DNA from: Prevotella sp.
GTDB lineage: Bacteria > Bacteroidota > Bacteroidia > Bacteroidales > Bacteroidaceae
Length of the DNA: 64,000 nt
Reading direction: 5' to 3'
Assembly (NCBI GenBank): GCA_022779305.1
Contig: JALFSW010000087.1
Location: 1 to 64,000, forward strand
Position 1 is the first letter of the stretch, and every line of letters starts with the position of its first letter. Below the pieces are notes generated by a model that searched no databases, had not been told where the DNA came from, and was given only the letters and a program-made list of their open reading frames with translations. Shown here piece after piece: positions 9,076 through 62,773 of this stretch. A program made the translations under genes and the position numbers.

Positions 9076-9113
9076 TTAAACCCAAAGCGATCTAATGACC
9101 GATTTGGGTTTAA
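9076..9113. repeat. Family A solo hairpin
   Basis: Thirty-eight bases bounded by TTAA, AAACCCAAAGCGATC then TAAT then GACCGATTTGGGTTT, i.e. both terminal repeats of family A without the centre. It lies just downstream of the peptidase terminator and 31 bases before a 22-bp dyad array. Confidence 0.65.
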
Positions 9114-9143
9114 ACAATTGAAAATCAAGCGATTTAGAAGTAG

Positions 9144-9234
9144 CTTGCAATTGAGCTTCACTTGCATCCCAACTGAGCCTCAGTTACCGGCAAAATGAGC
9201 CTTACTTGATTTATAACTGAGCTTCACTTGCAAT
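9144..9234. repeat. 22-bp phased dyad array 1 (family C), four dyads
   Basis: Four copies of a TGAGCYTYA dyad centred at 9156, 9178, 9200 and 9222, so spaced by exactly 22 bp. The 13 bases between dyads vary around CTTGCATCCCAAC. It lies upstream of the promoter of the DUF6621 gene. Confidence 0.8.
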
Positions 9235-13372: not shown

Positions 13373-13463
13373 TTAAACCCAAATTGGTCAATAGCCCATT
13401 AGGGTTTTCTTTTTATTTTCTTTTATCCATTTCCCTTTGGTCTCTAATGACTGAATTGGGTTG
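13373..13463 (-). repeat. Family A element, short copy (asd leader)
   Basis: About 90 bp starting at TTAA and ending at TTGAA, with both terminal inverted repeats (AAACCCAAATTGGTC and ACTGAATTGGGTT) but only ~40 bases of T-rich centre. It abuts the full copy next to it. Read toward asd, the AACCCAATTC-type end comes first, as in all other copies. Confidence 0.75.
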
Positions 13464-13660
13464 AACCCAAATCGGTCATTAGACCGTAGAGTGTTCTCTT
13501 TATTTTCTTTATTTACTCCCAATTGCTTGCATCCACTTGCCGGCATCTTGTTCAGCATTTTCTCTTGAAGTAGCCCGCTACATCTGCGATAAAATTCTGA
13601 ACAACCTGCACTGACAATTAGATACAACCCCTTTGGTCTCTAATGACCGAATTGGGTTAA
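13464..13660 (-). repeat. Family A element, full copy (asd leader)
   Basis: 197 bp with terminal inverted repeats of about 25 bp (AACCCAAATCGGTCATTAGA on the left, its partner ending at TTAA 13657-13660). The internal hairpin arms are 13551-13561 and 13591-13601, with one mismatch. It is oriented toward asd. Confidence 0.85.
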
Positions 13661-22172: not shown

Positions 22173-22260
22173 CGTTCAATTTCATTTAGTCGTTTTTTTC
22201 GCCATGGCAATGTAAAAACTTCGTGCCTCGTTTTCCGCTGCTCATTTGGCTTAACAAAAA
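22173..22260 (-). repeat. Family B 88-bp leader repeat, copy 1 (purB leader)
   Basis: Directly adjoins the purB start codon region and is followed without gap by copy 2; each is 88 bp. Landmarks on the minus strand: AAGCCAAATGAGC, AAAACGAGGCACGAAG, TTTTTACATTGCCATGGCG, GACTAAATGAA. It has one fewer A in an A-run than copy 2, which shifts a short reading frame. Confidence 0.85.
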
Positions 22261-22348
22261 CGTTCAACTTCGTTTAGTCGTTTTTTCGCCATGGCAATGT
22301 AAAAACTTCGTGCCTCGTTTTTCCGCTGCTCATTTGGCTTGACAAAAA
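22261..22348 (-). repeat. Family B 88-bp leader repeat, copy 2 (purB leader)
   Basis: Tandem with copy 1 and nearly identical. It contains on the minus strand a 19-codon frame (MSSGKTRHEVFTLPWRKND, then stop). It begins about a dozen bases after the predicted purB transcription start. Confidence 0.85.
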
Positions 22349-22366
22349 CGTTCATATATGGTTTTG

Positions 22367-23028: not shown

Positions 23029-23100
23029 CAACTAAGGCTCACTTACAACGCAACTGAGGCTCACTTGTCTTGCAAATGAGCCTCAGTTGAAAAGCAAGTA
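23029..23100. repeat. 22-bp phased dyad array 2 (family C), three dyads
   Basis: Dyads TAAGGCTCA, TGAGGCTCA and TGAGCCTCA are centred at 23037, 23059 and 23081, spaced by exactly 22 bp. It lies downstream of corA and far upstream of the tRNAs. Confidence 0.8.
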
Positions 23101-23133
23101 TACTTTCTCTTGCAAATCTATAAAATGAAAACA

Positions 23134-32422: not shown

Positions 32423-32625
32423 TTAAACCCAATTCGGTCATTAGAGACCAAACGGATTACGTCTGATGGGCTATGCAGATTCTTCATCGTTTTCTCGCAG
32501 ATGTAGCGGGCTTATTTCAAGCGAAAACGATGAATAAGCTGCCGAAAAGCAGATGTAAGCAGTTGGGAAGTTAATAAATAAAATAAAAAAGACCCCTAAC
32601 GGTCTAATGACCGATTTGGGTTTAA
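32423..32625 (+). repeat. Family A element, full copy (lrgAB leader)
   Basis: 203 bp bounded by TTAA at 32423-32426 and 32622-32625. Left end AACCCAATTCGGTCATTAGA; right end ACGGTCTAATGACCGATTTG. The internal hairpin is a perfect 11-bp stem (TTCATCGTTTT 32483-32493 with AAAACGATGAA 32524-32534). Ends 15 bases before the lrgA start codon. Confidence 0.88.
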
Positions 32626-35813: not shown

Positions 35814-35865
35814 CTTCTTTTCAGCCTGTTAGAGACATTTTATCCAAATACAGTATAGTTCGATT

Positions 35866-35926
35866 ATAACTAAGCCTCAGTTGCGCTGCAACTGAGGCTT
35901 TATTGCATCCCAAATGAGGCTCACTT
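35866..35926. repeat. 22-bp phased dyad array 3 (family C), three dyads
   Basis: Dyads TAAGCCTCA, TGAGGCTTT and TGAGGCTCA centred at 35875, 35897 and 35919, spaced by exactly 22 bp. It lies 50 bases downstream of the secreted-protein gene in a gap between convergent genes. Confidence 0.8.
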
Positions 35927-35986
35927 AATATTACCTTAAAATAACGTGAGGTCAATGAAATAATGTAGACGGGCGCATTGTAAGGC

Positions 35987-39749: not shown

Positions 39750-39950
39750 TTAAATCCAAATCGGTCATTAGACCGTCAGGATTTCTTTTTATTTTATTTA
39801 TCAACTTCCCAATTGCTTGCAACTACTTGTCGGCAGCGTCTTCAGCGTTTTCTCTGGAAGCAGGCCGCTACATCTGCGATAAAGCGCTGAACAATCTGCA
39901 CAGACAATTAGGCGCAACCAGCTTGGTCTCTAATGAACGAATTGGGTTAA
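39750..39950 (-). repeat. Family A element, full copy (upstream of mutL)
   Basis: 201 bp from TTAA at 39750-39753 to TTAA at 39947-39950, with terminal inverted repeats. Internal stem arms TTCAGCGTTTT (39841-39851) and AAAGCGCTGAA (39881-39891), one mismatch. Oriented toward mutL. Its TTAA end supplies the stop codon of the neighbouring small gene. Confidence 0.87.
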
Positions 39951-47039: not shown

Positions 47040-47215
47040 ATAATAATTCTTCATAACTTCAGCATTTTTCTTAGTTTTCTACTAAAGAATTAAAGCAATT
47101 TAACGCCAAAGAGTTCTGTACATACACTTGGCGAATTTCTATAGTTTTTCTAACAACTTTCAAACATCCGATAACAATCTGATTTTTAGCTATTTAAAAT
47201 ATAATATATACTTAC

Positions 47216-47280
47216 ATTCCAAGTGAGCCTCACTTGTATCCTAACTGAGGTTCACTTGCGTCCTAACCAAGCCTCACTTA
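47216..47280. repeat. 22-bp phased dyad array 4 (family C), three dyads
   Basis: Dyads TGAGCCTCA, TGAGGTTCA and CAAGCCTCA centred at 47228, 47250 and 47272, spaced by exactly 22 bp. The array runs directly into a family A half-end. Confidence 0.8.
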
Positions 47281-47301
47281 ACCCCAAATCGGTCATTAGA
47301 C
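47278..47301. repeat. Isolated half-end of repeat family A
   Basis: TTAACCCCAAATCGGTCATTAGAC is a near-perfect family A end fused to the end of dyad array 4. A fragment of family B (GAAAAAACTAAACGAAATTG) follows at about 47317-47341, so this gap holds pieces of three families. Confidence 0.65.
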
Positions 47302-53767: not shown

Positions 53768-53923
53768 TTCTTTAAATCTTTTCCGCCTTGCCTCCTTGCA
53801 CAATGACAAGACGAATAAGGCGTGGTCAAATGCCTTTGTTAATAATCCCGAAGGATAACCACTTCCTCCAGCCCTCACATCGTGTGAGAGTTTGCTCTAC
53901 ATGCAGTCAGAGCTTTTCTTGTG

Positions 53924-62571: not shown

Positions 62572-62773
62572 TTAAACCCAATTCGGTCATTAGAGACCAA
62601 ACTGATTGCAGCTGATGGTCTGTGCAGGTTGTTTAGCGTTTTATCGCAGATGTAGCGGGCTACTTCAAGAGAAAACGATAAAGAAGATGCCGACAAGCAG
62701 ATGCAAACGGTTGGGAAGTGAATAAATAAGACAAAAAGAAAACCCAAGCGGTCTAATGACCGATTTGGGTTAA
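62572..62773 (+). repeat. Family A element, full copy (upstream of the histidine kinase)
   Basis: 202 bp from TTAA 62572-62575 to TTAA 62770-62773. Same ends and orientation as the lrgAB copy. Internal stem TTTAGCGTTTT (62632-62642) with AAAACGATAAA (62672-62682), one mismatch. It ends 54 bases before the kinase start; no canonical -7 box is found before or after it. Confidence 0.87.

Follow-up and report, generated by a model that had tools for sequence, protein, structure and literature searches.

Evenly spaced intergenic arrays of palindromes in exact 22-bp phase in Prevotella, with core words that differ between species

The Prevotella sp. genome analysed here carries dispersed intergenic arrays of short palindromes whose centres lie 22 bp apart, and other genomes of the genus carry arrays of the same geometry built from other words. 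The window, by which we mean the whole stretch of 64,000 nucleotides that was analysed, belongs to the genome referred to as G000, a 2.23-Mb draft that is about 90% complete. Established here are the geometry of the arrays, their dyad symmetry, even spacing, intergenic position and in-phase end caps, as well as the conservation of their frame, the partial conservation of their positions and the replacement of the core word between species. Protein binding, oligomerisation and a chromosome-organising output are what we infer: the reading that we tentatively favour, and to which we give somewhat less than an even chance, is that the arrays are landing platforms by which a dimeric DNA-binding protein, able to oligomerise, organises the chromosome. 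In the open-access literature we found no description of dispersed arrays with a fixed 22-bp phase, even spacing and species-specific words.

Four arrays lie in the window, none of them assigned to a strand. The first (9148..9230) comprises four 17-bp dyads centred at 9156, 9178, 9200 and 9222, in steps of 22 bp, and the others comprise three dyads each, centred at 23037, 23059 and 23081 in the second (23029..23089), at 35875, 35897 and 35919 in the third (35867..35927), and at 47228, 47250 and 47272 in the fourth (47220..47280), which lies upstream of guaB. Three of the four also carry an in-phase end cap half-site, recognised by its sequence and likewise unstranded: AAGTATA at 23096..23102 in the second array (outer unit centre 23103), TATAGTT at 35854..35860 in the third (outer unit centre 35853), and TATACTT at 47207..47213 in the fourth (outer unit centre 47206). 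The initial annotation had described 13 dyads in four arrays with centres exactly 22 bp apart, and all of them were located, each step being 22 bp. The common spacer sequence that it had also read, CTTGCATCCCAAC, turned out to be a local impression, the commonest 7-base middle occurring only five times among 173 spacers; the constant part of these spacers in G000 is TTRC-NNN-GYAA.

The dyads of the window are not a product of chance, the 13-mer and perfect-pair counts lying far above their controls. With one mismatch allowed, the 13-mer TGAGSCTCASTTG matches G000 209 times in the forward and 197 times in the reverse direction, against 1 + 1 in the reversed control, and since it is nearly self-complementary these matches amount to roughly 200 places. 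Perfect pairs of the form TGAGSCTCA-N13-TGAGSCTCA number 45 (reversed control, 0), and a scoring matrix built from the exact dyads detects about 120-150 dyads in 462 kb, compared with single figures in reversed sequence. The array census and the spacing statistics cover 1.094 Mb of the 2.23 Mb, where 81 arrays of the dyad CAASTGAGSCTCASTTG were counted, most of them (55) made up of three dyads and the rest of four (19) or two (7); this corresponds to about 160 arrays on the whole chromosome, mostly of three to four palindromes each. Isolated dyads are rare in this genome and exact-phase arrays are the rule. Irregularly spaced arrays had been proposed as something to look for elsewhere in the genome, and the search left the fixed step standing, as 173 of the 174 spacings within the 81 arrays are 22 bp and the remaining one is 66. 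When strong dyads were listed without phase bias, 79 of 81 neighbour distances of up to 150 bp were 22, the others being 44 and 66.

In each 22-bp unit GYAA precedes and TTRC follows an 11-bp palindromic core (STGAGSCTCAS), and three free positions (NNN) complete the unit, which places a linker centre midway between successive dyad centres, 11 bp from each. The end cap is a distinct in-phase half-site, AASTRTA, which faces inwards and is found at 29 of 160 array ends, against about 0.04 expected. Copies of the array are alike at the dyads and not in the spacers or flanks, and no conserved flank extends past the in-phase cap. At the variable positions, identity within arrays is 3.33/7 against 3.50/7 overall, and adjacent units are no closer to each other than distant ones. 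Since neighbouring units are not more alike, unit length would be selected rather than copied, and since adjacent units are no more similar than random, slippage is not what maintains the arrays; a minisatellite or local tandem duplication was rejected for this reason and because array sizes are confined to 2-4. The preservation of length and dyads, and not of spacers, is as expected of protein sites, and it bears out the earlier remark that the arrays hold their spacing although their bases vary: the spacers diverge and the 22-bp step stays.

Genes were called crudely, by a simple ORF rule, also for the measurement of even spacing. By these calls nearly all G000 arrays, and all of the confident ones, are intergenic, the three gene overlaps in the first 462 kb looking like gene-call artefacts. 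In this part of the genome the arrays fall in 18 tandem, 6 convergent and 6 divergent regions, they are closer to the stop than to the start in 15 of the 18 tandem regions, and none lies less than 64 bp from a gene start. Divergent regions hold 6 of the 30 classified arrays in G000 and 4 of 17 in the relative G010, so that, despite the 15/18 bias in tandem regions, a role tied to gene ends, as had been suggested for the arrays, is not supported. The flanking genes are unrelated housekeeping genes, namely guaB and, by inspection, gyrA, htpG, nuoA, rimP, fabI and others.

Even spacing was measured in two genomes, G000 and G010. The median inter-array gap in G000 is 11.3 kb, and only 1 gap is shorter than 5 kb, against 17.8 expected under random intergenic placement (0/5000 simulations), whereas a control MITE in the same genome is randomly placed, with 23 such gaps against 21.9 expected. 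In G010, where 7.1 gaps of this size were expected, there is likewise only one, a 154-bp split duplicate (p=0.0012); the coefficient of variation of the gaps is not significant in G010 alone (p=0.27), only the close-pair deficit being so. GC skew and the array map of G010, an assembly of 3 contigs, were inspected for an ori-ter pattern and revealed no clear terminus exclusion. Among the three largest array-free stretches of G000 is one of 50 kb (C58:15531-66027; L107-L109, L167), which consists of dense, small, co-oriented genes and is probably a prophage or integrative element.

With regard to the relatives, whose lack of the family had been raised as an argument against it, the outcome was divided: the exact TGAG word is indeed absent, with no TGAGSCTCA-N13-TGAGSCTCA pair in 39 relatives, yet the 22-bp architecture recurs among them, built from other words. 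In de novo period scans 22 bp came first among the local periods of G000, G010 and G003, and the words differed: G010 uses AAAAGRTNAYCTTTT, and G003 and G042 use approximately AAAGRAAGSCTTYCTTT. Two genomes, G000 and G010, were analysed at length. In 900 kb of the latter, 41 arrays of AAAAGRTNAYCTTTT with the 22-bp step were counted; the array caller used there needed in-phase seeds, and a count without that bias put 53 neighbour pairs 22 bp apart and 1 pair 23 bp apart. When G000 and G010 were cross-searched, neither matrix detected the arrays of the other species. The two genomes nevertheless have 8 array positions in common against 3.8 expected, a moderately significant excess (Fisher p=0.014). 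The region upstream of guaB carries 22-bp arrays with other words in G010, G003, G042, G060 and G044, and arrays with other words also occupy the region upstream of an ABC-transporter gene in several species. A lone 22-bp array of GACGTCAT dyads was seen at L149:1641 of G010, the main word of which is AAAAGRTNAYCTTTT.

A core-independent survey of the frame, with the pattern GYAA-N11-TTRC-NNN-GYAA-N11-TTRC and one mismatch allowed, covered 120 genomes of the genus. The frame is in 10- to 100-fold excess in about two dozen of them, with counts against control of 581/2 in G108, 484/0 in G017, 326/1 in G001, 201/0 in G021, 165/0 in G016, 149/1 in G085, 67/0 in G010 and 53/0 in G000, and many of the 120 stand at zero. 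Counts in 246 genomes elsewhere in the order do not rise above background (0-5). The words vary by species, as in AAAA-GCGTAGG-TTTT of G017 and AAAA-GCATAGC-TTTT of G012, and some are shared, one by G017 and G108 and another by G000 and a Prevotella MAG. Conservation of the NNN linker across species was looked for and no correlation was found. The reverse-read frame (CRTT-N11-AAYG-NNN, repeated) is in excess in G074 (563) and G113 (129), which suggests a second frame of 22-bp arrays.

In the mechanism that we propose, a single sequence-specific DNA-binding protein would dock on each array as three to five dimers, side by side. The unit would comprise an odd palindrome, in which GYAA and TTRC enclose an 11-bp core that varies with the species, and a free linker of 3 bp, and its length of 22 bp would put neighbouring dimers on one face of the helix, separated by two turns and able to touch each other. 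Spread at about one per 10-20 kb, restricted to intergenic DNA and separated by some minimum distance, the arrays would then anchor the chromosome into domains, through looping, nucleoid compaction, or membrane or segregation attachment, and the recognition word would turn over between species while the geometry stays. Docking of a chromosome-organising protein is favoured because it accounts for dyad symmetry, strand independence, same-face phasing and end caps, along with the fixed small copy number, the even spacing and the partly conserved positions, and it is further supported by G010, which repeats the same array design with another word. The pattern fits a dimeric protein and the side-by-side binding on one face of the DNA that the initial annotation had suggested, and even genomic spacing favours the structural role that it had put forward, at the scale of the chromosome. 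Counting against this reading, no binder emerged among the candidates tested, G010 showed no ori-ter pattern pointing to a known function, and a core architectural protein does not usually have its word replaced throughout the genome. Whether the genus as a whole possesses a system in which an organising protein and its ~100-200 in-phase, evenly spaced arrays repeatedly swap their recognition word is more doubtful, although conceivable; if it does, whole genomes have been rewritten while frame, spacing and in part positions stayed, a bacterial counterpart of fast-evolving centromere or PRDM9-type DNA recognition. Docking arrays would point to a new chromosome-organising factor in a dominant gut, rumen and oral genus, and a species series with one geometry and replaced sequence would make DNA-protein co-evolution directly testable.

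Several other explanations were weighed against protein docking. Tandem hairpins at the RNA level, acting as terminators or 3'-end stabilisers, would agree with the proximity of tandem-region arrays to the upstream stop (15/18), with the 13-bp stem and 5-base loop that an adjacent opposite-centre pair can form, with sense-strand GU counts of 132 against 100 for AC, and with a folding energy slightly better in real than in chimeric arrays (-29.6 vs -27.8 kcal/mol). Opposite centres, however, occur in 45 of 82 adjacent pairs against 40 expected, and complementarity at the variable positions is enriched in the outer stem (z ~+3 at -5/+5; z ~+4 at the centres in G010), depleted in the inner stem (z -3.4) and mixed over the full scan, so an RNA stem is at most weakly supported. 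Moreover, divergent regions carry arrays, which are thus not confined downstream of genes as intrinsic terminators would be, no Rfam family matches them, and terminators would leave the exact 22-bp phase, the 3-4 copies, the even spacing and the genome-wide shared word unexplained; we consider such a role unlikely. Operators of a global transcription regulator with a drifting regulon would share the dyad symmetry and an operator-like length, and some arrays do lie 64-200 bp upstream of genes, but the neighbouring genes have no function in common, the arrays stay out of the final 64 bp ahead of starts and even spacing is unexpected for a regulon, which makes this quite unlikely. The idea that a chromosomal replication initiator of the Rep_3 type uses the arrays as dispersed iterons or operators draws on a Rep_3 protein (PF01051 + PF21205) with an array ~190 bp upstream, on orthologs in G017, G003, G042 and G010, and on mobile Rep_3 genes elsewhere in the genus that adjoin perfect 22-bp iterons, the same periodicity. 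It is very unlikely: such iterons repeat directly, almost without variation, next to a single rep gene, whereas the arrays are divergent palindromes genome-wide that the rep gene does not track, orthologs being missing from the strongly frame-positive G001, G016, G021, G085, G006, G069, G102, G093, G044, G089, G004 and G060 and present in the frame-negative G054 and G101, and no array lies closer than 9 kb to the ortholog in G010. Rep_3 was therefore rejected as a general array binder, and no binding protein was found among the candidates tested (Rep_3 and a ParB paralogue); the ParB search returned one chromosomal ParB in each of six genomes and no second clear copy, which argues against a Noc-like paralogue. 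A tyrosine recombinase adjoins an array in both G000 and G010, but most of its paralogues have none adjacent, and no general link holds. The distant Rep_3 homologues L291, L293, L294, L299, L301, L306 and L308 in the genus were seen to adjoin perfect 22-bp direct-repeat iterons, for example CTCAAAAGGTTACTTAATCGTT, whose AAAAGGTTAC also occurs in the dispersed dyad of G010.

Spread of a selfish REP- or MITE-like repeat by a transposase, with target immunity setting the minimum spacing, is a further improbable explanation. REP/REPIN sequences are short palindromic intergenic repeats in hundreds of copies whose words differ by genome (PMC3116915), a description which the arrays share, having high copy number and one word per genome, and some G010 array pairs are near-identical, flanks included. 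Generally, though, the copies have dyads in common and not spacers or flanks, positions are partly conserved between species with differing words, and the arrays, of 3-4 units in fixed 22-bp phase, are evenly spaced, unlike REPINs (PMC3116915) and the G000 MITE, which are random. A search for RAYT (PF01797) in six array-bearing genomes was positive only in G010, no Y1/RAYT transposase being present in G000 (~90% complete), G003, G042, G017 and G099; its lack in five of the six argues against REPINs, and with no consistent hairpin doublets and non-random placement, REPIN/RAYT identity was rejected. So was MITE identity, as the arrays have no terminal inverted repeats, leader or tail and the real 199-bp MITE of G000 looks different. 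BrickBuilt of Porphyromonas gingivalis, an intergenic tandem-repeat minisatellite MITE with a 23-nt unit (PMC4596501), resembles the arrays as a Bacteroidales intergenic tandem repeat with a unit of about two helical turns; it has a leader, tail, terminal inverted repeats, 19 copies and variable length, whereas the arrays lack the first three, keep a tight copy number and have units that diverge between dyads. CRISPR, with its identical repeats and unrelated spacers of ~26-40 bp, was rejected on array structure, in line with the initial annotation, since the dyads are divergent, the spacers are 13 bp and related, and the arrays are many and short.

DNA uptake sequences, like the arrays, are genome-wide, rather evenly spread and divided into species dialects. 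Their words act singly and also within genes, whereas single dyads are rare here and intergenic arrays in exact phase are the rule. As palindromic sites scattered on the chromosome, the arrays also resemble the site sets of Noc, SlmA and MatP, whose words are widely conserved; they differ in their 22-bp-phased format and in a word that varies within one genus, and no terminus gap was evident in G010. Noc-binding, SlmA-binding and matS/MatP sites are palindromic protein sites in tens of copies with a cell-biological role (PMC4331003, PMC3116907), and NBSs are absent from the terminus (PMC4331003). The arrays are probably not members of these systems, as the search for a known cognate protein, which covered ParB, brought none to light, and both their array format and the dependence of their words on the species set them apart.

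Other repeats were noted along the way. The 199-bp MITE-like element (terminal inverted repeat AACCCAAATCGGTCATTAG...CTAATGACCGATTTGGGTT) lies at 13376-13660, 32426-32622, 39753-39950 and 62575-62771 of the window, with solo or partial ends near 9080-9115 and 47280-47300, and 79 copies of 70 bp or more were counted in 1.09 Mb of G000; it often adjoins arrays, at variable distance and orientation, and was set aside as a separate, randomly placed family. A recurring motif, TTGAAAATCAA / TTGATTTTCAA, is found at 9116-9124 and in many array flanks, and is possibly another dispersed dyad. The window further contains an 88-bp unit in 2.1 copies with 94% identity (22173-22354) and, on the minus strand at 53811-53913, an engA RNA motif (Rfam RF02972, 62.7 bits).
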